Made by a program: the position numbers and the translations under genes. 38,048 bases of DNA from Verrucomicrobiota bacterium (GTDB taxonomy: Bacteria > Verrucomicrobiota > Verrucomicrobiia > Palsa-1439). Every line of letters begins with the position of its first letter. Position 1 is the first letter of the stretch. This document shows, piece by piece, positions 1 to 34,417 of the stretch. The stretch spans positions 1-38,048 of the forward strand of contig VHCW01000044.1 in NCBI GenBank assembly GCA_016871575.1. The letters are read 5' to 3'. The notes beneath the pieces were generated by a model. The model ran no database searches, had not been told where the DNA came from, and saw only the letters and a list, made by a program, of their open reading frames with translations.

Positions 1-1470
1 GCCGCGAGGGCGCTCCCCCCCCGCCGCTGGAATAAGGTGTTGCTTTGCCTTGATTCCAATCGCGGGGCTGCCTTCCTCTTTCGGGTGCTTGCCTGCCATT
101 ACTTCCTCGAATGCCTTTCTCAGAATCGGGCGTGCATAGGCCGCGCGACCGGAGAGTTTCTTCACCTGCAACGTCTCGGCCAGAACCGTTTCGCGTGAGA
201 GCGGCTTGTCTTTCTTGCGACCTTTTCCTGCACCCTTGTCGAGAACTTGCTGCACCGCTGCATCGAATGCCGCGACGCCTTGGCCAAGCTCACCAAGTAT
301 CAGGCGTTTGCCGCGCCGCAACTGGCCGCGTCTCCGTTTCTGAATCTGTTCCGGCAAGGTTGGGAACAAGTTCGCAGCGTGACCGGATGTAAGTTCCTTT
401 TGCACGGGGTCGAGGATGAGGGCTTCCTTCTGGTTCACTTCCATGAACATCGTGGCGAGATTGTCGCGGATCGCGCTGGACACATCGCGCACGGCATCCT
501 TGAACTGCTTCTCGGTCATGCTGCCGACAGCCCGCATTCGTTTGTCGAGTTCCTTGCGTTCCTCGACGGTTAGCGGCATCAACTCCTTATCGGCCATCCG
601 CGCAACGCGGACGTTTGCCAGCAACATGCCCCAACGGAAATTGAGAAACTCAGGCGTGTTTCGTGACGGCACCTTCTGTCCAGTAACGGGGCACTTAGAG
701 ATGATGCGGTTGTCGAAGCGTGGAACAAGTTGCCCGAACAACAAGCCGCCCTGATAACGCAACGGCAGTTTGATGGCGGGGCATGGGACGGCTTTCCAAT
801 TGCTGAACATCGCCGTTGCGAATTTCTCATCCATGCCCTTCAACTTGCCGAAGTGCGCTTGAAGAATCCGCGCAACTTCCGCCGTGATGTTGTCGCGCGG
901 AAACGCGGCGTTCAATCCCTTGAAGCGAATAATGGAAGATGACTTCTTGCCGAGCGGGTCAACGCCAAGTTCCTTGCAAAAGGTCTCCGCCATCGTCTTG
1001 ACACCGTGCTTTTCCAACAATGTGTATGCGTTTTGAACCTTCTCTTGATCTTCCTTTTCTTCCTCGGCTTCACCCCCGCTCCAACGGCGGTTGCCATCGT
1101 AACCGCGATTGTGGGCGTACCAGCGGAGCACGTCCCAAAGCTCCGTCCATGTCAGCAGTTTGCCCCCAACGAGTACTTGCGCCGCCAGCTTCCACGGCCA
1201 CGCGCAGCCCGGTTTGTCCAGTTGCGTTTGCGTCAGCACGCCAAGATGCAGTAACAACGCCTTCATCCTTCGGATGCGCTGGCGTGTGCTGCGGATGTGA
1301 CGCCGCTGACGCCGATATTGTCGTCGCGTGCTGGCGAGGCAATCATCAGCGCGGAAGATGACGGCACCGCAGCCTTTGAGTTCGAGTTGGGGGGTGTTCT
1401 GTAGGACGGCCCAGCCGATAGAGCTGTGTCCAACATCAAAGGCCAATTCCAAATCCGCGCGCTTTTCCAT
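1..1470 (-). CDS. cas9: Type II-C Cas9, N-terminal 490 codons (runs off left edge)
   Basis: RNA-guided DNA endonuclease. I translated the reverse strand from the ATG at 1470 and found 490 codons with no stop, so the gene is open at the window edge. RuvC-I is FDVGHSSIGWAVL with predicted catalytic Asp12. An arginine-rich bridge helix follows at about residues 47-70 (STRRQYRRQRRHIRSTRQRI). Then come LRWYAHNRGYDGNRRW (115-130) and LLFGQLVPRFDNRIISKCPV (243-262), REC-lobe stretches that I recall in very similar form from Akkermansia muciniphila type II-C Cas9, a protein of about 1,100 residues. HNH, RuvC-II/III and the PAM-interacting domain would lie beyond the left edge, where cas1, cas2 and the array may also be. 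The start is fixed by a purine-rich AGAGGAGA about 6 bases upstream. A run of eight C at 15-22 is the only spot where a frame error could hide. Confidence 0.92.
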   Translation of the reverse strand, partial: MEKRADLELAFDVGHSSIGWAVLQNTPQLELKGCGAVIFRADDCLASTRRQYRRQRRHIRSTRQRIRRMKALLLHLGVLTQTQLDKPGCAWPWKLAAQVLVGGKLLTWTELWDVLRWYAHNRGYDGNRRWSGGEAEEEKEDQEKVQNAYTLLEKHGVKTMAETFCKELGVDPLGKKSSSIIRFKGLNAAFPRDNITAEVARILQAHFGKLKGMDEKFATAMFSNWKAVPCPAIKLPLRYQGGLLFGQLVPRFDNRIISKCPVTGQKVPSRNTPEFLNFRWGMLLANVRVARMADKELMPLTVEERKELDKRMRAVGSMTEKQFKDAVRDVSSAIRDNLATMFMEVNQKEALILDPVQKELTSGHAANLFPTLPEQIQKRRRGQLRRGKRLILGELGQGVAAFDAAVQQVLDKGAGKGRKKDKPLSRETVLAETLQVKKLSGRAAYARPILRKAFEEVMAGKHPKEEGSPAIGIKAKQHLIPAAGGERPRG

Positions 1471-1484
1471 AGCCAATTCTCCTC

Positions 1485-1512
1485 TTGCGTTTTCGCTGAT
1501 TTTGCCTATCAT
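1485..1512 (+). promoter_or_regulatory. Candidate promoter for the tracrRNA-like transcript
   Basis: TTGCGT (1485-1490) and TATCAT (1507-1512) are separated by 16 bases, which would start transcription near 1519 and away from cas9. The match to a sigma-70 promoter is only moderate. It is mainly supported by its position ahead of a structured stretch that ends in a strong terminator. Confidence 0.3.
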
Positions 1513-1518
1513 GGCGAC

Positions 1519-1655
1519 GGAATCAAGACAAAGTTAGATAGCGCAGACTGGTTTGGGGGCAACCCCTAGTAAAATCTATCCGCTACGCGGATACACCTGT
1601 TCAAAAGCGTTTCTAATTCCGAAAGGCGGGAACACGTTTCCCGCCTTTCATTTTT
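1519..1655 (+). ncRNA. Candidate tracrRNA divergent from cas9
   Basis: About 137 nt lie between the predicted start and the terminator, with no convincing ORF. Seen in sequence: a GGGG-CAA-CCCC hairpin (1556-1566), a perfect 7-bp stem TATCCGC-TAC-GCGGATA (1577-1593), a single-stranded stretch, then a 12-bp terminator stem. Anti-repeat, nexus-like hairpin and Rho-independent terminator, next to and divergent from cas9, is the usual plan of type II tracrRNAs. The 5' half (about 1525-1576) would be the anti-repeat. No CRISPR array lies in the window, so repeat complementarity, the decisive proof, cannot be shown. It could instead be a cas9 leader structure or an unrelated small RNA. Confidence 0.5.
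1621..1655 (+). terminator. Rho-independent terminator
   Basis: GAAAGGCGGGAA (1621-1632) pairs perfectly with TTCCCGCCTTTC (1638-1649) around a 5-nt loop and is followed by ATTTTT. The T-run exists only on the plus strand. The transcript it ends therefore starts in the cas9 upstream region, which supports the small RNA call. Confidence 0.85.
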
Positions 1656-1778
1656 ACCATTTTCTTTGCGCCCTCTTGCGCCTTTTTGCGGCCAACATCG
1701 CTTCCGACTTTCTGAGTCTTTGCTATTCCCTCCTCAATGTCTGGGCCGGAAGATTTTTGAAAACATTCCCTCCCGAAA

Positions 1779-1967
1779 CTACAGGCTGGAGGCAGTGAAG
1801 TATCTGGTGGAATGGCAAAACTATAGGCTGGGGGTGCGAAAATATGGGTTGGAATGCTTTCAGCCTATAGTGCGAGGTGCAAAAGATAGGCCGGAATCGT
1901 GGCGGTATAGGCTGGAGACAGGAAAAGATAGGCTGAAGGCGCGTCAACCTTGATATGGAGGGCCATG
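1779..1967. repeat. Degenerate 21-bp-period tandem array 1
   Basis: Roughly eight diverged units of about 21 bp built on an AGGCTGGAG...AAAGAT/TAC core. On the plus strand the period is seven codons and reads as YRLE-type heptads in one open frame to a TGA at 1951-1953. The array ends in GTCAACCTTGATATGGAGGG, which recurs at the end of array 2. A 7-bp hairpin GGACGCG/CGCGTCC (2004-2023) lies between the arrays. I see no convincing gene start, so I call it a minisatellite rather than a gene. Confidence 0.75.
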
Positions 1968-2071
1968 CTCTGTCGTGGCCGCTTTCTGGTAATTCCTGCA
2001 AACGGACGCGACTGAGCGCGTCCCTCCAATGACCATTGAAAAGGGCTTTGACACGGTATTGGACGCGAAGA

Positions 2072-2345
2072 AGTAGAGGCTGGAGCCGCAAAAGTACAGA
2101 CTGGAGCGGCTAGACTTTGTACCGGAGCGGCAAAAGTACAGACTGGAGCGGCTCAATCCTAGACTGGAACGGCTCAATCCTAGGCTGAAGGCGCAAAAAG
2201 ACAGGCTGGAGCCACGAAAAAGAGAGGCTGGATCCGTGGAAGATGGGCTGGAACGGATCAAGTATAGGCTGGGGCCGCTCAGGTATGTACTGGAGCCGCG
2301 AAAAGATAGGCTGGAGCCACGTCAACCCTGATATGGAGGGACATG
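2072..2345. repeat. Degenerate 21-bp-period tandem array 2
   Basis: About twelve units related to array 1 (for example AGACTGGAGCGGCTCAATCCT beside near copies). The plus frame stays open for about 90 codons in heptads of RLEPxKY type and ends at the same GTCAACCCTGATATGGAGGG boundary as array 1. Upstream in that frame a short ORF starts at ATG 2030 and is stopped by TAG at 2074-2076, exactly where other units have TAC or TAT. That leaves open a decayed repeat protein. The alternative is non-coding satellite DNA. Confidence 0.75.
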
Positions 2346-2444
2346 TTTACCCGTCGTAGGCGGCACGAAAGGCGCGCCAAGATAACATCATGCCTCTGCG
2401 ACCTCTGCGTCTCTGCGGTGAAAACATCGCGTCTGGAGGTCGCT

Positions 2445-2513
2445 CAATGTGGAGCAGGTTTGCAACCTGCTTTTCCATGACAAGAAGGCAGGTTGCAAAC
2501 CTGCCCCACATTG
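2445..2513. repeat. Large palindromic element, copy A
   Basis: Two 26-bp arms (2445-2470 and 2488-2513) are inverted copies with one mismatch, containing GCAGGTTTGCAACCTGC, around a 17-nt loop. A closely related element lies at 12151-12215 and a decayed one near 31424-31469, so this is a dispersed non-coding family. Just before it, 2393-2424 carries the CTCTGCG-type repeat, a reverse form of the GCAGAGACGCAGAGG family seen elsewhere in the window. Confidence 0.85.
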
Positions 2514-2580
2514 CAGACAGTAGGCGGAACATTTCTTGAATTCAATCGAAGTCGGGGATAATCTCTGCGTCCATCTTTCC

Positions 2581-5134: not shown

Positions 5135-5886
5135 TGAGAACCGAAGCAAGCAAACCGACGATCACCGCTCCCGGAGCGTTCTCGCTCTTGGAAGTGTTGC
5201 TGGCGATGACGATCCTTTCGCTGCTCGTGTTGGCCGTCGGCGTCACGTGGTCGTCCGGGCTGCGCGGCTGGCGACGCGGCGGCAATGTGGCCGATTCCGT
5301 CCAGCGCCAGCGAATCGTGACGGAGACGATCGCGGAATTGACCCGGTCGTTGTTTTACCTTTCCACGGACCGGGAGACGGCGTTGCGGGGCACGCACGAT
5401 GAGGCGGAGGGTGACACCGTGAGTTTCATCACCAACTCGGATCTGTTGCTGCCGTTGGAGATGCAGGCAGTGGGCGGGATGCGGCGGGTGACGATCGGGT
5501 TGCAACACGACGACCAAGGGCGCGCGTATTTGGGCATTCAGGACAGCCTGGCGCTCGCGCCCGATGAATCGCAGGCGGGCACCAACCAATGGCGCGTCTT
5601 GTCGGCGGACGTCAGTGGATTTGTCGTCCGGTATTATGACTGGCGGCTCGGTGAATGGAGCGACGATTGGACGCCGACGCGGATACTGGCGTCGCAATTG
5701 GAATACACGATCACGTTTGGCGGACAGAGTGAGGAATCGCCGCCGGTGGTGGTGCAGCGGCAGGTGGAATTGCCGTTGATGCAAAGCTGGAAGGCAGTGA
5801 TTCCGCCCTCGAAGACCAGCACGAACAAAACGTCATCAAAGAAGACCGCGTCGAAGAAGACCGTCTCGAAGAAGGGGAGGCGTTGA
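5134..5886 (+). CDS. gspJ: Minor pseudopilin GspJ-like
   Basis: 250 residues from the ATG at 5134, which overlaps the gspI stop by one base; the in-frame ATG at 5041 lies inside gspI and is rejected. The prepilin motif is GA|FSLLE, with Ala rather than Gly at the cleavage site, a less common but tolerated residue. A hydrophobic helix and a beta-rich domain follow. The C-terminal 25 or so residues are a lysine/serine/threonine tail made of repeated SKKT-like words, which is odd for a pseudopilin and probably disordered. Confidence 0.82.
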   Translation: MRTEASKPTITAPGAFSLLEVLLAMTILSLLVLAVGVTWSSGLRGWRRGGNVADSVQRQRIVTETIAELTRSLFYLSTDRETALRGTHDEAEGDTVSFITNSDLLLPLEMQAVGGMRRVTIGLQHDDQGRAYLGIQDSLALAPDESQAGTNQWRVLSADVSGFVVRYYDWRLGEWSDDWTPTRILASQLEYTITFGGQSEESPPVVVQRQVELPLMQSWKAVIPPSKTSTNKTSSKKTASKKTVSKKGRR

Positions 5887-6852
5887 ATGAGGGCGGAGCG
5901 CGGCGTGGCCTTGGTCGTGGTGTTGTGGGTCATCGTAATGTTGTCCTTGCTCATCGGCGGGTTTGCCTTCACAATGCACGTCGAAACCCAAGTCGCGTCG
6001 TTCAGCCGCAAGGAACTGCGGGCGGAGATGCTGGCGAGGTCGGGTGTGGAGTTGGTGCGGCGGCAGTTGCATGCGCGAACGCCCTGGGAAAAAGCAACCG
6101 AGGCGCTCAACCAGACGTGGCGCGCCAATGCGGAGTTGTACGCAGAACACGAATTGGGTGATGGAACATTTACCGTGAGTGTCATTGACGAAGAAAGCTT
6201 GTTGCCGATCAACCGCCTGAGTGACGGGCGGTTGAAACGGCTGTTGCAATTGCTGGAGGTGGACCCGACGCAGGTGGACATCATTGCCGACTCGATTATT
6301 GATTGGATTGACGGCAATGATCTCAGCCGGTTGAACGGCGCCGAAAGCGATTATTACATGACCTTGAATCCTCCCTATCGGGCCAAGAACGCCCCGATCC
6401 ATCGTCCGCAGGAGTTGCTCATGATCCGCGGCGTCACCCGCGAACTCTACCAAGGCACACCCGATCGTCCCGGCCTGAAAGATCTCGTGGTGCCGTTCAC
6501 CCAGCAGGTCAATATCAACACCGCTTCGCCGCTTGTCCTGCAAGTCATCCTCTATTTGGATGAAGCCACGCTCCACCCGCTGCTGCGACGGCGGGATGGA
6601 CCGGATGAAATACCGGGGACTGATGACGATCGCCCGTTTCGCAACGTGCAGGAAGCCATTAGGGAGTTTTGTCCCCGCGACGATGCTTCGCGCAAACGAT
6701 GGGAAACGTACCTGACAACGAACTCCAATGGGTTTCGCGTGATCTCCACCGGTGACGTCGGCGGCGTTCGACGGACCATCATCACCACGTTGCAGTACAT
6801 TCGAGGCGATTATTATCCGGTTGTCTGGACTTGCCAGCGAGATGGCCCGTGA
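5887..6852 (+). CDS. gspK: Pseudopilin-tip protein GspK
   Basis: 321 residues. It starts with MRAERG|VALVVVLWVIV, the prepilin-like N-terminus typical of GspK, which lacks Glu5. It then has the large helical domain with helix-hairpin-helix-like parts, one around LLPINRLSDGRLKRLLQLLE (about 105-124) and a second around VNINTASPLVLQVIL. In the family it caps the pseudopilus as a complex with I and J. It begins directly after the gspJ stop. Confidence 0.92.
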   Translation: MRAERGVALVVVLWVIVMLSLLIGGFAFTMHVETQVASFSRKELRAEMLARSGVELVRRQLHARTPWEKATEALNQTWRANAELYAEHELGDGTFTVSVIDEESLLPINRLSDGRLKRLLQLLEVDPTQVDIIADSIIDWIDGNDLSRLNGAESDYYMTLNPPYRAKNAPIHRPQELLMIRGVTRELYQGTPDRPGLKDLVVPFTQQVNINTASPLVLQVILYLDEATLHPLLRRRDGPDEIPGTDDDRPFRNVQEAIREFCPRDDASRKRWETYLTTNSNGFRVISTGDVGGVRRTIITTLQYIRGDYYPVVWTCQRDGP

Positions 6853-8129
6853 CAACACGATCGAATGGTTCCCATTCCGCTTATGCTGCAGTTGTCTGGC
6901 GCGCGTCGCGCGTGGACGCCGTGCTCCGCAACTCCGGACGTTGCCTCAGTGCCGCCACCTTGGATGAATTGCTTTCGCAAGCCGAACTCCGCAGCAGCCG
7001 CGCCGTCATCGCCATGTCCGGCACGGAGACGTGGTGCCAGACCTTGTCGCTGCCGACGACGGAGGCGTCGGAGTTGGAGACGATGCTGGAGTTGAAACTG
7101 GACACCGTGGCGCCGTTGCCCGCCGAAGAAGTCGCTTACGGGTACGTGCCGCTGGAAAAGACGGAAAACGAGACGCGACTGTTGCTCGTGGTTTCCCCGA
7201 AGGCGCTGGTCAATGAGCGCGTCGGGGCGCTCGATGCCGCCAAGATCACGGCGGAGACCGTGACGGTGGATGCGCTGGCGTTGTTTCACTGGCTGGCGAA
7301 CCGTCAACGCCTTCCCAACGACGAGAAACTTCACGCGCTGCTCCACGTCACGGAAGGCGCCGTCAACCTTGTCTTCCACACACGCGCACAGCCGGTGGCC
7401 GTCCGTTCCATGGCGTGCGATGGTGAAGCTGGCCGGGACGCGGTGCTGGAGGAATTGCGACGAAGCTGGTTGGCTACCGAGTTTCAGCACGACAACAACG
7501 GGCGTGGCCGTCTGATGGTTGTGGCCGACACGGTAGGGTTGCGTCCCTTGGCCGGACAGTTCCGCGATGCATGGGGGCCGGAGGCGGAATGTCTCGTGGA
7601 AGAATCGGAAGCGCCCTTGTCCGCGCTGGCGGCCAGCGCGCCGAGCGTCAGCACATTGAATTTGCTGCCGAAAGAATGGAAGCAAAAACGGCGAAGCGCC
7701 TTCTTGCGGCGGCGCCTGATCCGGACTTCGATTGCGCTGGGCGCGCTGTATCTGCTCGGCGTGGCCGTGTTTGCGGCCGGGCTGGCCATGGAACGCGCTG
7801 AACAGCGGCGCTTGGCGGCGGAAGCCGCGCGGTTGCAGCCGCCGTATATTGCGGCGCGCAAGTTGCGCGACACGCTCTCCGCAATGCAGGCGCAACTGGA
7901 CGTGAAATTCTCGGCGATCGAAGTGTTGCGGGAAATCAGTTCGCTGATGCCGGACAGCCTGAAGCTGACCGATTTTCTGTTCCTCAAGAACCAGCAAGTC
8001 ACCTTGCGCGGAATGACATCCGCCCCGGAACAAGCGACGGAATTCATCGCGCGTCTGGAAAACAGTCCGCTCTTTTCCAAGGTCAAGACCGTTTCGATGC
8101 CGTTTCGATGCCGACCCAACGCGGATTGA
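6849..8129 (+). CDS. gspL: GspL/PilM-PilN-like secretion protein with frameshifted C-terminus
   Basis: Inner-membrane linker between the cytoplasmic ATPase and the periplasm. I choose GTG 6849, overlapping the gspK stop as GTGA. The 426 residues show an actin-like cytoplasmic part (about 10-240, PilM/GspL-like), one membrane helix (292-314), a coiled coil (315-365) and a PilN-like fold with LMPDSLKLTDF (367-377) and LRGMTSAPEQATEFI. An 11-bp tandem duplication at 8090-8111 changes the frame, so the protein ends MPFRCRPNAD. With one copy removed, the frame would continue through GLTRFDLICTLQSV to a TGA at 8195-8197 that overlaps the gspM ATG. The present gene has therefore lost its last beta strand, unless this is a sequencing error. 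Confidence 0.85.
   Translation: MTTRSNGSHSAYAAVVWRASRVDAVLRNSGRCLSAATLDELLSQAELRSSRAVIAMSGTETWCQTLSLPTTEASELETMLELKLDTVAPLPAEEVAYGYVPLEKTENETRLLLVVSPKALVNERVGALDAAKITAETVTVDALALFHWLANRQRLPNDEKLHALLHVTEGAVNLVFHTRAQPVAVRSMACDGEAGRDAVLEELRRSWLATEFQHDNNGRGRLMVVADTVGLRPLAGQFRDAWGPEAECLVEESEAPLSALAASAPSVSTLNLLPKEWKQKRRSAFLRRRLIRTSIALGALYLLGVAVFAAGLAMERAEQRRLAAEAARLQPPYIAARKLRDTLSAMQAQLDVKFSAIEVLREISSLMPDSLKLTDFLFLKNQQVTLRGMTSAPEQATEFIARLENSPLFSKVKTVSMPFRCRPNAD
8090..8111 (+). repeat. 11-bp tandem duplication causing frameshift in gspL
   Basis: CGTTTCGATGC occurs twice back to back (8090-8100, 8101-8111). Eleven bases are not a multiple of three. The alternative frame downstream stays open for 30 codons and ends exactly on the gspM start, which marks the single-copy form as ancestral. 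Confidence 0.9.
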
Positions 8130-9349: not shown

Positions 9350-11701
9350 ATGAAATCCATCCATCTGTTGCATATGATCGTTGTACTTAGTCTCGCGGCC
9401 TCTCACCTCTTCGGCAGCGAGACCGGCACGATGCGCGTTCCTCCGATTCCCGGCGCCAATACCAACGAACTGCCGGTCATCGAGTTTGTCGAGGCTCCCA
9501 TCCAGGCCGTTCTCGACTACTACGGGCGTTTGACCGGACGCTCCATTGTCGCGGCGACCAATGTTGTCGGCGTTGTCAACTTCCGCAGCCAGGCGGTGCT
9601 CACTCGCGAGGAGACCATTCAAGCGCTCGACAGCGTTCTGACAGTCAATGGCTACATTGCCATGCCCGTTGGGGACAAACTCCTGAAGGTCGTTCCATTC
9701 TACGCCGCGAAGCAGGAGGCGCCACAGGTCGGCGTTGGCACCACCGATCCTCTTGTTCCCTCTGACCAGCTTGTCACCCGGATTGTGCCGCTGCAAATGG
9801 CCGACGTCGGCGACGTCATCAGCGCCCTCCAGCCTTACATTCACTCCTACGGACAATTGGTCGCGCTTCCCAAGTCCAACAGCATTCTCGTGACCGACTC
9901 CGCCAACAACGTCGCGCGCATTCTCGAAATACTCGCGGTTCTTGACCGCTCCTCGCGCCGTTCGATGGAAACGAAAGTCTATGCCCTCAAACACGCGCGC
10001 GCCGTGGATGTGCTGCCGCGACTGCAAGCCATCGTTGCGGACACAGCAGCCAGTGGCAGTGCGCGGACGCCCACTCCTGTAACGCCTGCGAGTACGCCGG
10101 TGATTCCGACATCATCGCGCACTACCACGGCACCCGGTGCACCGGGAGTGCCATCCTATGGATCGGTGGTGATTGCCCGCCCCAGCACGAGCGGCGAAGA
10201 AACAGCCATCGAGGGCAAGGTCATCATTACCTCCGATGACCGCACCAACAAGATCATCGTTCACACCCGTTCTGTAAACTTCACGCTCTTGGACAAGATG
10301 ATTGAGGAACTTGATGCGCTCGTCGAACCGGAAATCATCACCAAGGTCTTTCCCCTCCAAAATGGCGAAGCGCCGGAAGTGGCGCAAATGCTGACCATGC
10401 TGATCTCCGGCATCCAATTCATGCCCACCACCCGCACCACCTCCGGCGGACGAACCACTTCGTCATTTCAACCGCTCAGCATGGGCGGCATGGGCGGTTT
10501 CGGGGGAATGGGTGGGTTTGGCGGGTTTGGCGGCTCCAGTGCCGCCGGCGGCAGCGCTGCGATGTTGAGCGCGTTGCAGGCGAAGCTACAGGCCAGCGGC
10601 TTCATGAAAAATCCGGAGAGCGTTCGCATTCTTCCCGACACTCGCACCAATGCGTTGCTCATCATGGCCAGCCGGGAAGACATGACGCGCCTCGACGAAC
10701 TCATCAAACAACTCGACGCCCAGCTTCCCCAAGTCCTTATCGAAGTCATCATCGGCGAAGTCACCCTCACCGACGAACGTGAAGTCGGCGTGGACATCGT
10801 GCAGCGCGTCCTGCGGAGCGGCCAGATGAAGACCTATGGTGGCACCCGCACCGGCACCGAAGGGCCGCCGGCCGCCGCCCGTCCCGTGGACCTTACCGCA
10901 CTTGCCGCCGGCGCCACGCCGGCGGGCGCGGCGGTCTCCAGCGCGTTGACGTACTTCGCCACGTTCCAGGGATTGCGTCTCGACCTCGCCTTGCGCCTGT
11001 TGGCCAGCGACCGGAAATTCCGCGTCCTCTCGACACCGATTATCCAGACGTTGCACAACCAGCAGGGCAGCATCGTCGTCGGTGAATCACGCCCGGTCAT
11101 CACCGCCACGCTTTCCAGCGTCTCCAGCGTTTCCTCGACAAACCAGACGGCCAACGCCCTCCAATCCAACGTCGAGTTCAAGGACATCGCCATCGAACTC
11201 ATCGTCACCCCGCGCGTCAATCCCGACGGTTACGTCACGATGGACATTGACCAGCGCGTCAACGACCTCAGTGGCACCGTCAACATCAGCGGTTCCAATC
11301 TGCCCGTCATTTCCAAGCGCGAGGCCAAGTCCACCGTCATGGTCAAAGACCAGAACACCATCATTCTTGGCGGCCTGATCAAACAGAACAAGCAACTCGA
11401 AGCCACCAAGGTTCCGTTCCTTGGCGATGTCCCGTTTTTCGGCGCGCTTTTCCGCGACAAACGGACCGTGGACGTCCGCAGCGAACTCATCGTCTTCATC
11501 CGCCCGACGGTCCTGCGCGATGATGCTGCCGCCGGTGCCGAGGCCCGTCGCCGGACCGAACTGCTCGATGCCGGCAAGGAACTCGATCTCCACAAGAAGT
11601 TCCTCGACCCCGCTGCCACGAACGCGCCCCCCGCGCCGGCGCCGGCACCGGAGTCGAAACGCGCGCCGAGTTCCAACTTCGGCACGTCCCGTTCACGCTG
11701 A
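9350..11701 (+). CDS. gspD: Type II secretion secretin GspD
   Basis: Outer-membrane channel of 783 residues. It has a signal peptide (about 1-22), an N0 domain (about 42-118), N1 with a TRIVPLQMADVGDVISALQP start, an N2-like domain with an Ala/Thr/Pro-rich linker, and N3 interrupted by a glycine-rich loop with GGMGGFGGMGGFGGFGG. The secretin core has VGESRPVI, TPRVNPDGYVTMDIDQRV and the signature VPFLGDVPFFGALFR. The C-terminus is Pro/Ala-rich. No pilotin gene is seen nearby. It is the last gene of the operon. Confidence 0.96.
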   Translation: MKSIHLLHMIVVLSLAASHLFGSETGTMRVPPIPGANTNELPVIEFVEAPIQAVLDYYGRLTGRSIVAATNVVGVVNFRSQAVLTREETIQALDSVLTVNGYIAMPVGDKLLKVVPFYAAKQEAPQVGVGTTDPLVPSDQLVTRIVPLQMADVGDVISALQPYIHSYGQLVALPKSNSILVTDSANNVARILEILAVLDRSSRRSMETKVYALKHARAVDVLPRLQAIVADTAASGSARTPTPVTPASTPVIPTSSRTTTAPGAPGVPSYGSVVIARPSTSGEETAIEGKVIITSDDRTNKIIVHTRSVNFTLLDKMIEELDALVEPEIITKVFPLQNGEAPEVAQMLTMLISGIQFMPTTRTTSGGRTTSSFQPLSMGGMGGFGGMGGFGGFGGSSAAGGSAAMLSALQAKLQASGFMKNPESVRILPDTRTNALLIMASREDMTRLDELIKQLDAQLPQVLIEVIIGEVTLTDEREVGVDIVQRVLRSGQMKTYGGTRTGTEGPPAAARPVDLTALAAGATPAGAAVSSALTYFATFQGLRLDLALRLLASDRKFRVLSTPIIQTLHNQQGSIVVGESRPVITATLSSVSSVSSTNQTANALQSNVEFKDIAIELIVTPRVNPDGYVTMDIDQRVNDLSGTVNISGSNLPVISKREAKSTVMVKDQNTIILGGLIKQNKQLEATKVPFLGDVPFFGALFRDKRTVDVRSELIVFIRPTVLRDDAAAGAEARRRTELLDAGKELDLHKKFLDPAATNAPPAPAPAPESKRAPSSNFGTSRSR

Positions 11702-23732: not shown

Positions 23733-25688
23733 TTATCCTGCCCAGTCGGCACAGAGGAGTTCGGCTTGCTGGAGAACGGTCGCGGTTGCCTTCTCCTGCT
23801 TGTCGGGCGGGTAGCCGTACTTGCGAAGGATGCGTTTCACCAGCACCCGAATCTTCGCCCGTGCGCCCTCGCGTTCCGTCCAATCCGTACTCGTGTTGTT
23901 ACGAACCGATTGAACCAGTTCGCGGGCGATGGTTTTCAGTGTCGGCTCGCCTAAAACTTTGACCGCACTATCGTTGACCTCCAGCGAATCGTAGAACGCA
24001 ACTTCGGCATCGCTCAGTCCCAACTTCTCGCCGCGCTTACCGGCTTCCCGCATCTCTTTCGCCAACTCGATCAACTCTTGAATCACGGCGGCGGCTTCGA
24101 TGGCGCGGTTCTGGTACTTCAGGACGGATTGCTCCAGCATCTCGGCGAAGGAACGCGACTGGATGAGAAATTTCTTCTGCCGCATCTTTAATTCGTCGTT
24201 CAACAGTTTGCGCAGCAACTCGACGGCAAGATTCTTCTGCGGCATGTCGCGTACTTCGGCAAGGAACTGGTCGTCAAGAATGGAGATGTCGGGGTGTTTG
24301 AGACCGGCCGCCGCGAAAATGTCCACGACTTCATCGGACGCCACCGCACGGGAAATGATCTGGCGAATCGCTGAATCAATTTCCTCCGGTGACTTCGGCT
24401 TGCCCGTCGTGCTTTTCATCAGCGCGGCGCGCACGGCTTGGAAGAAGCCAATATCGTCCCGAATCTCGATGGCCTTTTCATGCGGCACGGCGAGCGCAAA
24501 CGCCGCTGACAAGTCGCGCACGGCTTTCAGGAACTTCTGCTTGTACTCGTCCGGCTTCTTCTCGGCCGCCGCTTTCGCCAGCACATGCTCTTGCGCGACC
24601 GGCAACAGCCCCAGTTTCTGCGCCGGCGTACCGGCCTCCCACGCCGACCAATCCAACCCGTGCATGAAATCGCAGCAGCGCTCGTATTCCCGCTGCATGA
24701 CCTCGACAGCCTTGGCTTGGTCAACCGTCGGCTCGCCTTTGCCCTGGCTTTCGGTGTACACGGCCAGCGCTTCTTTCAGTTCGGGCGCAAGGCCGAGGTA
24801 ATCCACCACCAAGCCGCCGGGCTTGTCCTTGAACACGCGGTTCACGCGGGCGATGGCCTGCATCAACGCGTGACCGCGCATCGGTTTGTCCACGTACATC
24901 GTCGTCAGGCACGGCACATCGAACCCGGTCAGCCACATGTCGCGCACCAACACGATCTGGAACGGCGCTTTCGGGTCTTTGAACTGGTTGGCAATCTTCT
25001 CGCGGCGATCCTTCGACCGGATATGGCCCTGCCACTCGACCGGATCATCCGCCGAGCCGGTCATGACGACTTTCATCACGCCCTGCTTGTCATCGTCGCT
25101 GTGCCAGTCCGGCTTCAACTTCCGAATCTGTTCGTACAGTTCCACGCAAATCCGCCGGCTCATGCACACGACCATCGCCTTGCCGCCGTAGGGCACTTGC
25201 GTCTCCATCGCTTCCACCCGCGCTTCCCAATGCTTCACCAAATCCGCCGCGATCAGCTTGAGCCGGTTCTCCGAGCCGACAATCTTCTCCAACGCCGCCC
25301 ACTTGGATTTGAGTTGTTCCTTGTGTTGAAGTTCCTCGCCTTCGGTCGCTTCCTCGAAATCCGGGTCAATCCGGGGCCGTTCTTCCGGCTTCAACTGGAG
25401 TTTGGCCAACCGGCCTTCGTAGTAAATCGGCACGGTCGCCTTGTCTTCCACGGCGCGCAGGATGTCGTACACGCTGATGTACTCGCCGAACACCGCCCGC
25501 GTGTTCGCGTCGGTCTTCTCGACCGGCGTGCCGGTGAACGCGATGCAGGACGCATTCGGCAGGGCGTCCCGCATGTACTTCGCAAACCCGTACCAGACCT
25601 CGCCGGTCGCTTTGTCCAACTTCGCCGCAAACCCGTACTGGCTCCGGTGCGCCTCGTCGGCCATGACGACGATGTTGCGCCGCTCATC
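23733..25688 (-). pseudogene. hsdR: Type I restriction subunit HsdR, N-terminally deleted
   Basis: About 651 codons of clear HsdR sequence, from just before the DEAH box ([11 protein letters not shown]) through [43 protein letters not shown] and [10 protein letters not shown] of the helicase, to the C-terminal region (DUF3387-like) ending CADWAG. The nuclease domain (PD-(D/E)xK) and the Walker A half of the motor are absent: homology begins at 25688, directly where the neighbouring ORF ends with TGA 25684-25686. The frame continues upstream to 25964 only as a shadow of that ORF. Translocation and cleavage cannot be expected. Confidence 0.9.
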
Positions 25689-27105
25689 CCCAATGCATCT
25701 TGTCCATTGGAACATTAAGCACGTTTTCCAATGACAAGCCCAGAAAGCAGCCGGCTTTGTCGAGATTTGAGGGGCGCGGACTGCAAAACAGATGATTGCA
25801 CGATACCTGGGCTGTCGGGCAGCTTCTGAGTTGGAGTACCGGACAGGCGAATGCCTTTCGGTCCGGACCAGCCCACGCCAATGCGGGAAGTAATGAGCGC
25901 CAGAGTCGCATCTGTTCAAATTCGCGAAAGAACTCGTCCGGGTATTGATGAACGTTGTAGCCATATCTCTCGTTCACCGGCTTTCCTTCGTACTCGACGA
26001 GCCAAATCGGAAAATCGCGAAACGGTGTCCGGGCAAGATCCTCGTCTAACAATGATGCGGCTGCCGGCCACAGTATGTGCGATACGATCGATTCCTTTGA
26101 CTCAGCCCAACGGAGAACGTCGAGCGCGAGTCTGATCTCTGGAAAGACAGTAACTGCTTTGCCTTCTCCTTCCACGTCTTGTATCGCCGCCTTTATGCAT
26201 TCCCTTGGGCGCTCGTACCCAGCCAGATCGCAAAGCCGCGATTCAAGTTCATCAAGTTTGAGCCAGTCGCGTGCATCCTGAAAAGTAGGTAAGGACTCCT
26301 TAGGCATCTTCATCGCAGCATCGACCAACACCACCACGCGTTGTGCAAGCCACCGCCAATCATCTTGTTGCGACCTCAACGGAGGATTGAACGCTATCCA
26401 ATAAATGAAGGGCGCTAGAAAATCCCTGCCACTACCGGCGAGCATGTGATTGATGAATGTGTAATCGGGACTGCGTTTCGCGACGTATTCCTCGTAGAGA
26501 ACTGCCCGTATCTCAGCGGGGAGTGACGGGGCAGATATGAGGAGATGCTGATTCCATGTCGCCCAATTCTCCATGGCTACCATGCCCGACAACGGGAAAT
26601 GTGCGCTGGCGCTCGATACGAAGATCCCAGGATCCGGCAAAGCATCAACGCGTTCTCCCTTCGCCCATGCTCTACGTTGTGGTGACCCTGCAATTAGTTG
26701 GTTGGTTTCCTGAGCAATGCACCGGGCTGTCATTACCGCCTCATATTCATCGGGTGACCAAGATTTGATGTTCACATGGTCAACGAACGGCAACTCATAA
26801 TCGCCACGAGATAGGTTCTTCCGGAGGAGACGAGCCAATAGCAGGGTCTCTTGGGCGCGGGCCAGTTGATACTTTAGCCCGAAAATCGTGCCGCTGAACT
26901 GAAGGTAATGCGTAAGCTCATGTACAAAGTTTGAAAAAGCGCGGACGTTTTGCTGATTCAGCTTCAACCGAACGTCGGGCCAATGATCTACGTCGGGTGA
27001 ATACTTTGTCTTGATAGTAAACGTCGAAGGACTGAAGTAACCCAGTACCTCCGGGATGATCAAGGCGTCAGCTACTGAAGCCGTATCCGGGGGTTCTGGT
27101 TTCAT
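25684..27105 (-). CDS. HExxH-containing putative metallopeptidase
   Basis: 473 residues from ATG 27105 (a TTG at 27114 is possible). [11 protein letters not shown] has the HExxH zinc-peptidase motif (His62, Glu63, His66), followed by a long helix. A second metal ligand is not certain; the Glu of [10 protein letters not shown] is a candidate. No signal peptide or membrane segment. The middle is rich in Trp and aromatic residues. The final 35 or so residues run into the hsdR junction and may not be native. It begins 51 bases after the HEPN gene on the same strand, probably one transcript. Lower GC than the neighbours suggests transfer. Function unknown. Confidence 0.75.
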
Positions 27106-27156
27106 GCATTTCAAGACTGCTTTTGGGCGAATCTGCCTCAGTCCCTTTTACCGGTG

Positions 27157-29100
27157 TCATGGTGGCGAGGGTTGGGCCGCTGGATTCGGGAGCGGCGAAG
27201 ATGAACCGGCAGCAGGTGTGGCGGGCCGGCTCTTTAACTGGGCGTCGATGCTCTGGACGAATAACTCAATTGCGGCGAACAATGCTTCGATTTCGGATAG
27301 TGAAAAGCGGTGAAGACTACCGGCCTTCGTCCTGCCATTGCGATGAACCAAGTCGTGGCGGATGGCGACTGCCCGGTGTACAGCAGCCGCGTCAGTCGGG
27401 AATTTCACGCCCAAGACGGTCTCGTACATGGCGCGCACCTTGGCCAAGTTGTGCCACACGATGTCAAACAGGTATTCGGTCACCTTCTGTTTGGTTGCCT
27501 TGTGCCAGCCGACAACTTCGGTCAGTGTGTATTTTCGCTCGGCAAAATCCGGTGTCGTCAGGATCAGGTGTTCGATCAACACGTCGTCCTTGATGACCGT
27601 CTGGTAGAAAGCGTCGGATAAGTAAGTCTCCATCACCGTGATGGCTGAGGAGTAGAGCATCCGGTAGAAGGGCTGCTTCAAGTGCAGGTATTCAGGGAAT
27701 TCGCGTTTCGCCAGAGCGCGGAGAGCACGCATGCTACTGGTGAATGTCTGAAGAAAGTTGGTGTTCGATCCGGCGGACTCAGCAAGCACGTCTTGAAGAC
27801 GGCGAACTCGGTTGTCCGCTTCGCAGAGCGGGCATCCGCTGCCCAAGACCGTTCGATTCTTGATCTGCGACTGCCATTCGTGAGCTGGGTTCGTCGGGCA
27901 CTGCCACCAGACCTTCCTGCCACTAGCCCGTTTCACCTTTTCGGCGGTCAGCGCGCCATTCTTCGACGGATGCCATTGCTTGGCTATGTCAGGGTGCTGA
28001 GTGGCTAAAGAATTTGCTGTTGTAACGCGGAAACCCGAACAGAATGGGCAGAGAGCCTTCGAGCGTTTGCTGGTTCGCGACATCACCGTCGCTTGCCACT
28101 CATGCGACGGGTCTTTGAGACATTGCCACCAGACGCGTTGAGCGCTGCCCGGAGTGACACTTGCCGGCTTCAACTCTCCATTCTTTGCGGAATGCCACTG
28201 CGCAGCGATCTTGGGGAAACGTTCTGCGAGAGACTTGCCGGGACCAGCGAACTTGCTCCGACGCGCACAGTAGGGACATCCCGTGTGCAGCTTGGCCCGG
28301 TTTCGAATCGCAGCTTTCCAAGCGTGTTCAGGATTGACCGGGCAAAGCCACCAAACCTGCCTTGTCGATCCCACGGACACATCCGAAGGTTTCAAGCCTG
28401 AGTTCTTCGTGGGATGCCATTGACCGGCCAATTTCCGTGAAAACACATCGAGCGTCGGCTGCGGGATGTTGCCCGCTGCTTTGACGCAGAACGGACAGCC
28501 GGATTTTGCCCGGATGCGGCCATCGATTCTTGCTTGCCATTCATGCGCTGGAACTTTTGCACATCGCCACCAGACGACTTCCCTCGACCCGGCAGAAATG
28601 TCATCGGCTGTTCTTCCGTCGTTCTTCGTGGGATGCCATTCACGCGCAATCTCCGGATAGGCTTTACTGAATGGATTCCGGGTTCTGTTGCATTGACGGC
28701 AACCCGACATGTAGCGAACACGGGTATGGATTGAACCATTCCACACGTGCTTCGGGTTCTTGCGGCACTGCCACCAAATACGTTTGTTACTTTGCGGCCC
28801 GAGCGTCCATGGATCGAGTGAGCCGTTGCGCGTTGGATGCCAATCTGCGGCAATTGTTGGGAAAAGTGCCGCAAAGGATTCCTCACGCAGCACTTTGAGG
28901 TGAGAGCAATACGGGCAGCCGTTCTTATCTATTGCCCGTCTTCGGACGTCCGCTTGCCATTCGTGTTTCGGATTCTTTTTGCACAGCCACCAAACCTTTG
29001 TCTTGGTCTTCGTCCGTAATTCGTCGAAGCTGACGCCTTCGTTCCGCGATGGATGCCACTCTTGTCGCAATTCGGGATGAGTATCTTTGACGAGGCTCAT
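27157..29100 (-). CDS. Six zinc-ribbon repeats fused to a HEPN-like RNase domain
   Basis: 647 residues from ATG 29100, which overlaps the hsdM remnant stop (ATGA). Residues 5-430 are six repeats of about 65-75 residues, each with a WHPTKN-like start, WWxC, HxW and CPYC-type knuckle (Cys40/Cys62-Cys65; 112/134-137; 180/202-205; 253/275-278; 327/351-354; 401/423-426). They match the zinc-ribbon family usually listed as DUF4379. Residues 450-625 form a helical domain ending in [11 protein letters not shown], with R581-x4-H586, the catalytic motif of HEPN ribonucleases. The tail is Pro/Ser/Ala-rich. Zinc-ribbon arrays of this kind are known with nuclease partners; a HEPN partner is unusual. Placement between hsdM and hsdR suggests an anti-phage RNase. 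Codon track before 29100 belongs to hsdM. Confidence 0.85.
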
Positions 29101-29327
29101 GAGGATACGGAGACTTGCGCCGAGTAGAAAAGTTGGCCGGGGAGCGCGACCATGCAGTCCACGAGGTCGGCTTCGATGATGGCTTTGCGAATCTCGCCTT
29201 CGCCGCCGGTGTTGGAGGACATCGAGCCGTTGGCGAGGACGAAGCCCGCCATGCCGGTCGGGGCGAGATGATGGATGAAGTGTTGCACCCACGCAAAGTT
29301 GGCGTTGCCGGCGGGCGGGACGCCGTA

Positions 29328-29387
29328 TTGCTTCGCTGCGCTCACCCTTCGGGCACGCCTGCGGCGTGGCGTCTCGCTGGTGCTCGG
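29328..29387 (-). repeat. 60-bp repeat-derived insertion in hsdM
   Basis: The family sequence [16 protein letters not shown] is split here by exactly 20 codons ([20 protein letters not shown]). The plus-strand GGCGTGGCGTCTCGC...CTCGGCTT resembles the 81-bp repeat at 21263 (GTGTGGCGTCTC...CTCGGCT). The frame is kept. Confidence 0.65.
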
Positions 29388-29857
29388 CTTCCAGCGGACA
29401 TCGTCGCGCACCTTGTCGCCGCCCCAGTCGCTCATGTTGAACGGCGGGTTGGCGAGAATCCAATCGGCCTTGAGGGACTTGTGCAGGTCGCGCAGGAAAC
29501 TGTCGGCGTTTGCTGCCCATGACCCCTCAGCCTGTTCCAGTTCTCGCTCTGCACGAACATGCCGCCCGTGCCGCAGCAGGGATCGAACACGCGGCCTTTG
29601 AACGGCGCGAGTACCGCGACGAGCAGTTGGACGACGCATTGCGGTGTCCAGAACTGGCCGCCCTTGCGGCCTTCCGCGGCGGCGAATTCGCGGAGGAAAG
29701 CCGAGCGTCGTTTGCGAGACATCGAGTGTCGTTTACGAGAATCCATATAGACCTGCCCCAACACATCCTTGCTGCGGTTGGCCTTGTCGCCGAGGCCGAT
29801 GGTGGAGATGAGGTCAACCAGTTCGCCAAGCCGCTGTTTGTCGAGACCCTGCCGGGC

Positions 29858-29915
29858 GAAGCCGAGTCGGACGAGACGCCGCTGTCGTGTGCGGCAATCG
29901 ATGCGTTTGCGGCCT
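29858..29915 (-). repeat. Second repeat-derived insertion in hsdM
   Basis: Extra residues [20 protein letters not shown] lie between VLK and [10 protein letters not shown], where family members have about 7. The plus strand reads GCCGAGTCGGACGAGACGCC, close to GCCGAGTTCGACGAGACGC at 21545 and to the 81-bp repeat. Boundaries are approximate. A third insertion near 29698-29747 has a 21-bp tandem duplication (CTCGTAAACGACACTCGATG, then CTCGCAAACGACGCTCGGCT). Confidence 0.55.
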
Positions 29916-30423
29916 TGCTTGAGCACCGGGTTGTCGCGCTCGATGGCGATCATCGCGTCATCAATGAACTTGCCGATGGTCGGTTGTTTCGCCTTGGCCT
30001 TGAGAAACGACCAGCGCGCCTCGACCGGCACCCAGAAACAGTTCACGGCGAGATATTCGTCGCGATCTTCCGGATTGGCGTCCTTCTCGGCGGCGAGTTT
30101 GGCGTGCTGTTCCTCGAACGCGTCGGAGATGTATTTCAGGAACATCAGCCCAAGCACGACGTGCTTGTACTCCGCCGCGTCCATATTGTTCCGCATCTTG
30201 TCCGCAGCAGCCCAAAGCGTCGCCTCAAACCCAAGATTTGCGCCACCGTTTTTAGCTGTTGATTGTCGCGGCATGTGCCATGTCCCTTGTTGGCGGAGTT
30301 ATACCGCAGGGGGAGGGGACTTGGGCAACCTTTTTTTGTGCTCTTTGCGTCTTCGCGTCTTCGCTGTTCATCCCATCTGTCTCCTTCGTGTCTTCGTGGT
30401 GAATCTTTTTCTTCCGTGTCTTC

Positions 30424-30561: not shown

Positions 30562-30774
30562 TTGAATTCCGGGGGCGGGAAGGGCGATACCGGTGACAAA
30601 GGCGACCCCGTCGAAGTGTCCGAGCAACAACTCAACGACGCCATCGCCGGCACGGCGAACAATCCCGGCGCTGTTGATACGCTGGACATCAGCGTGAGCG
30701 ATCCGCCTACGCAATCAGAAGTGCAAGACATCCTGAACAAGCTCAATGAACTGATCAACGCGTTGAAGCGGTAG
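30562..30774 (+). CDS. Small collagen-like ORF or gene remnant, 70 aa
   Basis: TTG 30562 opens a 70-residue frame: NSGGGKGDTGDKGDPVEV with collagen-type Gly-x-y steps, then an acidic stretch and a heptad-like helix (VQDILNKLNELINALKR). Composition and codon use look coding, but there is no ATG or Shine-Dalgarno and the frame stays open upstream to about 30440. It could be the 3' remnant of a larger fibre-like protein. Function unknown. Confidence 0.4.
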   Translation: MNSGGGKGDTGDKGDPVEVSEQQLNDAIAGTANNPGAVDTLDISVSDPPTQSEVQDILNKLNELINALKR

Positions 30775-30912
30775 TCGTCGGCAAAGTGCTCCTCACGCTC
30801 CGCGTAAGGTTCATGCCCGCCAACATCACGCGGAGCGTGATGAATACCTTCACTTGGTTCGGCGCCAATCCCGTGCGGGGTCGGGATCCCCTCGCACAAC
30901 TCGGGTAGGCGA

Positions 30913-31011
30913 TTAGGTGCTGCTCCCGGAAAGAATCGTGACCTCGGTGACTTCCACGAGATCGTCGCGCTTTTCCAGTGTCGGCTCGGCGTATGTTTTC
31001 TTGGTGTCCAT
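30913..31011 (-). CDS. Candidate RiPP precursor 1 with lasso-type leader, 32 aa
   Basis: Translated by hand from ATG 31011: MDTKKTYAEPTLEKRDDLVE followed by VTE and VTILSGSST, stop TAA at 30913. The leader has KKTYxxPxL plus a Thr near the expected -2 position, the pattern bound by the recognition element (RRE) in lasso-peptide synthesis. The C-terminal nine residues lack the Asp/Glu a classical lasso ring needs. The first 23 residues equal those of the second peptide. No maturation enzymes are in the window. It could also be a stand-alone leader-like peptide of unknown use. Confidence 0.65.
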   Translation of the reverse strand: MDTKKTYAEPTLEKRDDLVEVTEVTILSGSST

Positions 31012-31125
31012 GCCGAGAGAATAGCAAGAGAACGGATTGCAGTGCAATCACAATACCACGGATTGCAGGCCGCGTGCCCCCACGCGGCGTTGGACAGATC
31101 CGCCACGTCGGGTGACGCGGCCTAC
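30944..31125. repeat. 182-bp tandem duplication, unit 1
   Basis: Matches 31187-31368 at a fixed 243-base offset with no gaps and about five mismatches. It covers the shared leader codons, the upstream region and a REP-like palindrome (GCAGGCCGCGTG...GACGCGGCCTAC). It ends precisely at the leader/core border of the peptide. Confidence 0.95.
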
Positions 31126-31149
31126 TGTGCGCGGAATATCTTTCGCGGG

Positions 31150-31254
31150 TTACTTGGGCTTGAGGCCGGAGATCGGCGCTCCCATTTCGGTGACTTCCAC
31201 GAGATCGTCGCGCTTTTCCAGTGTCGGCTCGGCGTATGTTTTCTTGGTGTCCAT
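31150..31254 (-). CDS. Candidate RiPP precursor 2 with lasso-type leader, 34 aa
   Basis: ATG 31254 to TAA at 31150. The leader is identical to peptide 1 through VTE, then a different tail, MGAPISGLKPK. Again the tail has no acidic residue at positions 7-9. Its gene lies upstream of peptide 1 on the same strand, 138 bases away, within a 182-bp tandem duplication. No Shine-Dalgarno is evident (CTCTCGGC precedes both starts). Confidence 0.65.
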   Translation of the reverse strand: MDTKKTYAEPTLEKRDDLVEVTEMGAPISGLKPK

Positions 31255-31368
31255 GCCGAGAGAATAGCAAGGAGACGGATTGCAGTGCAATCATAATACC
31301 ACGGATTGCAGGCCGCGTGCCCCCACGCGGCGTTGGACAGATCCGCCGCGTCGGGTGACGCGGCCTAC
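31187..31368. repeat. 182-bp tandem duplication, unit 2
   Basis: Second unit; see unit 1. The palindrome at its end is followed by AACAC, restoring the GTTGTAGGCCGC end typical of the REP-like family. Confidence 0.95.
31278..31298 (-). promoter_or_regulatory. Palindrome and -10-like box upstream of peptide 2
   Basis: GATTGCA-G-TGCAATC (31278-31292) is a perfect 15-bp palindrome beginning 24 bases before the start codon, next to TATTAT (31298-31293, minus). Unit 1 has the same palindrome at 31035-31049 with TATTGT. It may be an operator at the transcription start; no clear -35 is seen. Confidence 0.35.
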
Positions 31369-31423
31369 AACACTCTGAAGCGGGTGTCGGGTTGTCGGAC
31401 GAGGGGCAGGACACGTTCGGCGC

Positions 31424-33358: not shown

Positions 33359-34417
33359 ATGACAATCATTGCTTGGTGGAAACGATACCAATCACGGAAA
33401 CAGGCGCGCGAACTGGTCAAGAACACGCGGAAACTGTTGCGCATGCATCGCGACATCATCGATGCCAAACAGTTGAAGTACTTGAAAGATGTTTGCGATG
33501 ACTTGAAACGGAGAGCCATCGGCGAAGATCGCCCACACTTGATCGTGGAACTGTCGGAGGAGTTGGAGAAGGGACTCGCGAAGACTTTCCCACACGCGCC
33601 CGGAGCGTCGTTGCGCGAGAACGTCGAAGTCTTTCTCGTCGCCGCCATCGTGGCCATGGCGATTCGCAGCTTCTTCATTCAACCATTCAAAATCCCAACG
33701 GGATCCATGCAGCCAACGCTCTATGGCCTGCACGAAGCGCAAGAAGATGGCCGCGGGGCATCCTTGCCGAAACGGATTTTTGACTGCATGGCTTACGGCA
33801 AGTGGCCAACCAATGCCGAATCACGCATGCCGAACTCGCTGTTGAACTTTATTAGCTGGATTGGCATCGGGAAATGGCCCTTTGGCGCGGCCTACACGTT
33901 GCGCGGCGACCATATCTTCGTGGACCGCTTTACGTATCACTTCCGCAAGCCCCAACGCGGCGAAATAATCGTATTCGAGACGAACGATATTTACACGGAC
34001 CTCATCAGCAAGTTCCGCTTCAGCGAGTACGAACGCGAACAACTCAAGGAGAAGGTCTGGAATAAATTCTACATCAAACGGCTGGTGGGTATTGGCGGCG
34101 ACCGCGTTCAGATCGAGCCGCCACACCTGATCCTCAACGGCAAGATCGCAGATGATCACATCGGATTTCGACGAATGCACTCAGGGCGGGATGGCTATCA
34201 GGGTTATGTGACCACCGGCCCATTGCCTCCGCCGTGCTTTTTGGGAACGCCTGCGGACGTGTTCGAAGTACCCAACAACTATTACTTCGTGTTAGGCGAC
34301 AACAGCCGGAGCAGCTTTGACGGGCGATTTTGGGGCGGCTTTCCCAGACAGGCACTAATTGGACGAGCCGTATTAGTGTATTGGCCTTTCACAAGGCGTT
34401 TCGGGTTCATTCAGTAA
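33359..34417 (+). CDS. lepB: Signal peptidase I
   Basis: Membrane serine protease that removes Sec/Tat signal peptides. 352 residues with a long charged N-terminal part (1-88), one membrane helix (about 88-105), catalytic Ser in PTGSMQPTL, catalytic Lys in YIKRLVGIGGD and box E LGDNSRSSFDGRFWG. A large insert lies between the Ser and Lys boxes. It could process the secreted GspD and GspC-like proteins of this window. GGGGACAG precedes the ATG. Confidence 0.95.
   Translation: MTIIAWWKRYQSRKQARELVKNTRKLLRMHRDIIDAKQLKYLKDVCDDLKRRAIGEDRPHLIVELSEELEKGLAKTFPHAPGASLRENVEVFLVAAIVAMAIRSFFIQPFKIPTGSMQPTLYGLHEAQEDGRGASLPKRIFDCMAYGKWPTNAESRMPNSLLNFISWIGIGKWPFGAAYTLRGDHIFVDRFTYHFRKPQRGEIIVFETNDIYTDLISKFRFSEYEREQLKEKVWNKFYIKRLVGIGGDRVQIEPPHLILNGKIADDHIGFRRMHSGRDGYQGYVTTGPLPPPCFLGTPADVFEVPNNYYFVLGDNSRSSFDGRFWGGFPRQALIGRAVLVYWPFTRRFGFIQ

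Follow-up and report, generated by a model that had tools for sequence, protein, structure and literature searches.

Two very short open reading frames on the minus strand of a Verrucomicrobiota contig specify peptides that share one leader and differ entirely in their tails, which raises the question of whether they are genes and, if so, what their product is. The window that we analyzed is a stretch of 38,048 nucleotides that makes up the whole of this contig (C44) of its genome. The original prediction took the twins for precursors of a leader/core family with swapped cores, and held that their leader is of lasso type while their product may be something else. We consider it likely that they are two of nine dispersed RiPP precursors, matured in trans by a locus on a second contig (C55) into linear peptides with a phosphate-based modification on Ser/Thr. 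The features on which this reading draws are collected in Table 1.

Table 1. Features of the twin precursor locus (window) and of the predicted maturation locus on contig C55.
Feature	Location	Strand	Basis or remark
Precursor C44a, 34 aa, MDTKKTYAEPTLEKRDDLVEVTEMGAPISGLKPK	window 31150–31254	−	ORF, family profile match, coding score
Precursor C44b, 32 aa, MDTKKTYAEPTLEKRDDLVEVTEVTILSGSST	window 30913–31011	−	ORF, family profile match, coding score
Leader of C44a, 23 codons	window 31186–31254	−	Y−17, P−14, L−12, T−2 relative to predicted cut
Leader of C44b	window 30943–31011	−	protein identical to C44a leader
Predicted core of C44a	window 31153–31185	−	Ser6 is the predicted modified residue
Predicted core of C44b	window 30916–30942	−	Ser5 is the predicted modified residue
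Direct repeat copy 1, 182 nt	window 30944–31125	.	upstream region and leader
Direct repeat copy 2, 182 nt	window 31187–31368	.	upstream region and leader
3' flank of C44b	window 30780–30912	.	near-identical to C35 precursor flank; contains dispersed palindrome 30782–30854
Dispersed palindromic repeat, ~65 bp	window 31305–31371; second copy 31062–31128	.	outer end of duplication
B1 (stand-alone RRE)	C55 4594–4878	+	PF05402, E=1.5e-12
B2 cysteine protease	C55 4871–5272	+	NF033537, 50.9 bits (cut-off 33)
HprK-like kinase	C55 ~7063–8049	+	
NTP_transf_5	C55 from 8050	+	E=1.1e-34
B12-binding radical SAM	C55		frame changes near 9590
Radical SAM	L013 (C55) 5406–6782	−	converging, between both C55 precursors

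Both twin ORFs are present as described, with the identical leader MDTKKTYAEPTLEKRDDLVEVTE followed by MGAPISGLKPK in C44a and by VTILSGSST in C44b. The duplication on which they lie is indeed nearly perfect and ends where the tails start: the two copies of the direct repeat are 97% identical, each of the five mismatches precedes the ATG, 68 nt of leader DNA match exactly, and the repeat stops within codon 23 at a synonymous difference (GAA/GAG). The twins thus have the upstream region and leader in common and nothing past the leader, the identity of their core DNA (0.49) being no higher than that of shuffled sequence (0.47 ± 0.05). A perfect inverted repeat, GATTGCACTGCAATC, lies upstream of the twin ORFs (window 31014–31049 and 31257–31292; exact in C44b) and may be an operator.

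The genome contains nine such precursor ORFs on six contigs (two each on C44, C93 and C55, and one each on C35, C75 and C17), which match the family profile with E-values down to 8e-20 and have no internal stop. The seven tails beyond those of the twins are MAKPISADPF, SGPPISGPPVPS, GDMVIISGVDR, QKPPLSAAD, QAPTISQVPGPV, GAPLPISLVEV and GLVPVSVLP. From KK to E the leader spans 20 codons in all nine copies, with zero indels, and for the nine copies pooled we obtained a pS of 0.62 and a pN of 0.15. The resulting pN/pS of 0.24, together with the fixed length, indicates that the leader is under purifying selection as a protein. Random changes in the leader codons, named beforehand as grounds for dropping the idea of a leader/core family, are not what we see; nine ORFs with one leader and differing tails form just such a family.

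Leaders of lasso peptides carry YxxPxL at positions −17 to −12 and Thr at −2 (PMC10368454), and the family consensus, KKxYxEPTLEKRExLxEVTE, places the same residues at the same positions, so that the leader was rightly called lasso-type. In all 23 precursors from this genome and its relatives, Tyr sits exactly 17 residues ahead of the predicted cut, and Thr is penultimate in eight of the nine own precursors, the ninth having VAE; several precursors of one related locus (L094) have Ala or Ser there. Scans of the precursors against Pfam, PHROGs and Rfam gave zero matches, NCBIfam returned only a sub-threshold match to lasso_cyano (E=0.19) and nothing for four other precursors, and no relatives were found in viral contigs.

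Comparison of the twins with the C35 precursor provides direct evidence for the swapping of cores. The leaders of C35 and C44b are 93% identical at the DNA level, and past the stop codon the two are near-identical over ~130 bp that reach into the 3' end of a collagen-like gene. Between these shared parts lie 27–30 nt of core DNA that are unrelated in the two precursors (identity 0.48, as in shuffles), and ahead of the ATG there is again no homology; the core has been exchanged while the leader and the 3' flank on either side of it stayed conserved. The cores of C44a and C35 show a trace of likeness (0.58, reached by 6 of 300 shuffles, versus 0.48). Two families of intergenic palindromic repeats (~65–70 bp, with many copies genome-wide) border the C44 precursor locus, one forming the outer end of the twin duplication and the other lying in the 3' flank. 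This mosaic is consistent with recombination at the palindromes and the leader, and new variants would arise when a leader segment is duplicated and then joined to a different core. The collagen-like gene is itself repeated: its 3' ends converge on the C44 and C35 precursors (window 30562–30774; L010 18207–18419), a C18 copy of the 3' end (L051) has no adjoining precursor, and a longer collagen-like gene lies upstream of the C55 cluster (L013 3–1301).

The position of the twins on a repeat and beside dispersed palindromes might suggest that the ORFs are chance frames within a mobile element rather than genes. Such frames would hardly yield nine diverged in-frame copies with a pN/pS of 0.24 or homologues that adjoin B1 and B2 genes in other genomes, and the palindromes occur many times with no precursor ORF; the ORFs themselves match nothing in Rfam or PHROGs. 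These observations in effect already refute the chance-frame reading, which we regard as almost certainly wrong, and confirm that the twins are members of a real family, above what chance would provide.

We saw none of the C55-type maturation genes in the window, and the twins would therefore be processed in trans. A genome-wide check for RRE/PqqD-like, B1/B2 and cyclase genes, proposed at the outset, led to C55 for the first two (RRE/B1 and B2); the cyclase is absent from that cluster. The gene order is B1, B2, precursor, converging radical SAM, second precursor, HprK-like kinase, NTP_transf_5 and B12-binding radical SAM, and C55 holds the only match over the cut-off to PF13471 in the genome. 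The six best PDB matches to the predicted structure of B1 are lasso RREs solved with leader peptides (best, TbiB1, E=8.6e-5, TM 0.79); the B1 of 6jx3 is also among these six. B2 exceeds the NF033537 cut-off both here and in a related locus (L029). Elsewhere in the genome, a further B12-binding radical SAM gene from this family comes after the orphan precursor of C75; the contig ends within it, and it shares 58% identity with its counterpart in L093. We left the converging radical SAM of C55 out of the pathway since it was unseen near the other clusters read and no RiPP maturase model scored it over the cut-off; it bears a weak likeness to viperins.

A scan of 84,980 species genomes revealed two further carriers, a Planctomycetota bacterium and a Phycisphaerae bacterium; a sample of 397 genomes from that class yielded three more, and 392 from the phylum yielded one (G953). 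The related clusters thus come from six genomes sampled around two Planctomycetota MAGs; no other carriers were found in the window's own phylum among 56 relatives or 387 phylum members. As foreseen, the relatives contain further YxxPxL mini-ORFs with variable tails beside B1/B2 genes. With A denoting the precursor, the order is B1-B2-A-HprK-NTP_transf_5-B12 radical SAM in L029; the same genes are divided between two contigs of one genome in L028 (B1-B2-A) and L093 (HprK-NTP_transf_5-B12 radical SAM). L045 (B1-B2-A-HprK-NTP_transf_5) and L047 (A-HprK-NTP_transf_5-B1-B2) have no B12 radical SAM nearby, and L046 reads B1-B2-A-A-A up to the contig end. Genes in relatives were called by eye and with a codon model for which the window served as training sequence, and some small genes may have escaped notice. 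In L094 (G953:C585), which also encodes HprK, B1-B2 are followed by at least seven tandem precursors (860–2518, minus strand), three of them with longer cores and D/E at positions 7–9; some L094 products could in principle be cyclised. We discarded as chance a match in G822 (E=8e-4, inside a 734-aa frame), and excluded from the count G243, which has a weak kinase paralogue and a YxxPxV mini-ORF and looks like a different cyclase-less cluster. Its locus (L097, G243:C31, 1840–7225) encodes B1, B2, an HprK-like kinase, a 640-aa radical SAM and an AMP-binding-like protein, with the mini-ORF MKEYQAPEVIEYPALTDVTGGSPLD and no cyclase seen, and adjoins a flippase-like gene.

Given a lasso-type leader together with B1 and B2, the peptides could be true lasso peptides closed in trans by an asparagine-synthetase-type cyclase, for which the Asn-synthase gene that converges on the C17 precursor would be a candidate. 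Two full Asn-synthase genes occur genome-wide. The C17 protein, however, scores as an ordinary AsnB (TIGR01536, 334 bits, cut-off 267) and falls far short of the lasso cyclase model (187, cut-off 525); because of these scores and the absence of such a gene from the clusters we rejected it as a lasso cyclase. As read, C55, L029, L045, L047 and L093 contain no macrolactam cyclase, and no Asn-synthetase-type cyclase was seen in any related cluster read. In addition, none of the nine own cores combines lasso core length with Gly, Ala, Ser or Cys at position 1 and Asp/Glu at 7–9, a combination found in 3 of 23 cores overall, all from L094. We accordingly do not class the family with lasso peptides in spite of its leader, B1 and B2, and find cyclisation in trans very improbable. 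The early suspicion of a non-lasso product is supported by a cluster that lacks a cyclase and by own cores that are too short or have no ring acid. With no macrolactam cyclase, the core would stay linear.

What nearly all cores do share is a hydroxyl residue. With the cores aligned on the predicted cut site, a Ser or Thr at +5 to +8 preceded by I, L or V occurs in 21 of 23, including all nine own cores; 5000 rounds of shuffling gave a mean of 3.7 and a maximum of 13 such cores, a comparison that is descriptive because the pattern was noticed and tested on the same sequences. HprK-like kinases of phosphorylated lasso peptides use one fixed core residue, the C-terminal Ser in paeninodin and Ser3 in Bsf, Ser3 also being the site in the linear polyphosphorylated peptides (LPP) discussed below. 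The kinase encoded by our cluster has H/G/G/G/K/T/D/D at near-identical positions to the conserved residues of BsfK (H, three G, K, S, D, D), with T in place of S. We therefore propose that the conserved Ser/Thr is the likely target of the kinase, and its predicted phosphorylation is the best-supported step of the pathway.

The homology of this kinase to HprK lies below curated cut-offs: against TIGR04352 (NCBIfam HPr-rel-A system, cut-off 200) the C55 and L029 proteins score 42.8 and 29.1 bits, and phmmer found no match in the PDB. The best PDB matches to its structural model are PEP carboxykinases, P-loop enzymes that are structurally related to HprK. In the class sample of 397 genomes the kinase profile hit only G058, G556, G057 and G639, all of them precursor carriers. 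The profile was itself built from three of the four, which leaves G057 and the silence of 393 others as the independent evidence. The kinase was not found in G607, which has precursors, and in the window's own phylum the profile hit only the window's own genome and, weakly, the G243 paralogue.

The NTP_transf_5 enzyme would attach a further group to the Ser/Thr phosphate. In pseudomycoidin the nucleotidyltransferase has been linked to addition of a hexose to the phosphate; deletion of lppN, in the LPP system, had no visible effect. The reaction of the B12 radical SAM, such as C-methylation, might instead be the main modification, with kinase and nucleotidyltransferase as accessories, and a B12-binding radical SAM gene is indeed found in C55, L029 and L093 as well as next to the orphan precursor of C75. 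Against this, L045 and L047 have kinase and NTP_transf_5 with no B12 radical SAM nearby, and the sole near-invariant core residue carries a hydroxyl, as fits a kinase; we think this order of importance rather improbable. Under the phosphorylation pathway that we favor, the YxxPxL leader would bind the stand-alone RRE protein B1, the kinase, aided by B1, would phosphorylate the core Ser/Thr, and the B12-binding radical SAM, where present, may add a mark such as a C-methyl, which we guess from the two domains that it combines. The B2 cysteine protease would then cut after Thr(−2)-x(−1) and free a core of 7–17 residues.

A further possibility is that only the C55 pair functions and that the twins, like the other orphan precursors, are copies in decay or without expression. 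The machinery is on C55 only, and C44a, C44b and C35 are surrounded by dispersed repeats and have no Shine-Dalgarno sequence ahead of them, one that several other precursors do have; no consensus promoter was found. Both twins carry a TATTCT 6 nt ahead of the start codon, which would, speculatively, permit a leaderless transcript. Decay is nevertheless hard to reconcile with leader codons intact in all nine copies under the selection described above, or with an aliphatic-Ser in nine of nine cores and no internal stop, and scattered precursors served by one enzyme set have a precedent in the prochlorosins. We judge decay unlikely, if worth bearing in mind, and favor precursors that are presumably expressed and processed in trans.

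The precedent is that of procA genes at scattered genomic positions that share one promiscuous enzyme, ProcM (PMC10783134). Prochlorosins resemble the present family in their conserved leader, unrelated cores, genome-scattered precursors and single enzyme, and differ in lanthipeptide chemistry, Nif11 leaders, cleavage at GG and unrelated enzymes. Closer in content are the phosphorylated lasso peptides (paeninodin, pseudomycoidin and Bsf), which share YxxPxL at −17 to −12, B1, B2 and an HprK-like kinase with the same conserved residues, as well as, in pseudomycoidin, a nucleotidyltransferase. They differ from our clusters in possessing both a ring acid and a macrolactam cyclase, and in being modified at a C-terminal Ser or Ser3 rather than at the predicted +5 to +8.

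The published account of LPP (PMC13381572, Nat Commun 2026) confines them to Bacillota. Their clusters, like ours, combine a stand-alone RRE, an HprK-like kinase and an NTP transferase with absence of a cyclase, and their precursors have a conserved leader with a Y/W-xxP motif and variable C termini. LPP systems, however, use a SipW-like signal peptidase, LppS, where we find a B2 cysteine protease, and an MsbA-like exporter; neither a SipW-like peptidase nor, by inspection, such an exporter is among the genes read around C55, L029, L045 and L047. Their leader, YxxPxVLxHQxIxFETxxS, is not the one seen here, and their precursors are 35–200 aa long with one to three per cluster, as opposed to cores of 7–17 aa, nine dispersed precursors and an optional B12 radical SAM. 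We do not class the family as LPP because of the mismatch in peptidase, exporter and leader motif. A signal peptidase I in the window (33359–34417) was also considered as an LPP-type peptidase and set aside, as we take it to be the usual lepA-lepB neighbor. By analogy, the system may work like a cross between LPP-like chemistry and lasso-type cutting.

Overall, the original prediction stands in part: it anticipated neither the machinery on C55, the nine precursors, the aliphatic-Ser kept in the tails and the lack of a cyclase, nor the chemistry that now seems likely (kinase and nucleotidyltransferase, with B12 radical SAM). Whether these peptides constitute a distinct RiPP family is, in our estimate, evenly balanced. 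Such a family would be defined by lasso-type B1/B2 machinery after loss of the cyclase, very short linear peptides, and a phosphate-based conjugate (plus a C-methyl or similar mark where the B12 radical SAM is present) at a conserved Ser/Thr region; in the window's genome, a single locus would mature the products of nine dispersed precursor genes, with core exchange between conserved leader and 3' flank. We found no description of such a system in Planctomycetota or Verrucomicrobiota in the open-access literature. If our reading is right, the B1/B2 pair can function without ring closure, and cyclase-less, kinase-equipped peptides with lasso-type leaders extend beyond one phylum, from Bacillota to other bacteria that use a B2 protease. 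Nine precursors with one leader, different cores and one locus would make a compact natural library with which to probe the core tolerance of the enzymes, and the C44/C35 trio is a direct DNA-level example of core exchange. Thanks to the near-invariant core Ser/Thr, what the uncharacterised NTP_transf_5 family does could likewise be tested with very short peptides.

Two other features of the window deserve mention. The minus strand of positions 1–1470 encodes a Cas9-like protein of which the contig end leaves only the N-terminal part (best E=9.4e-19 against the PADLOC Cas9 models). A type I restriction locus on the same strand (23733–30274) looks broken: HsdR (23733–25715) is without its N-terminal part, HsdM is present as two overlapping frames (29432–30274 and 29097–29639), and between them lie a 473-aa ORF that matches nothing in Pfam and another that specifies six treble-clef zinc-finger repeats (DUF4379).
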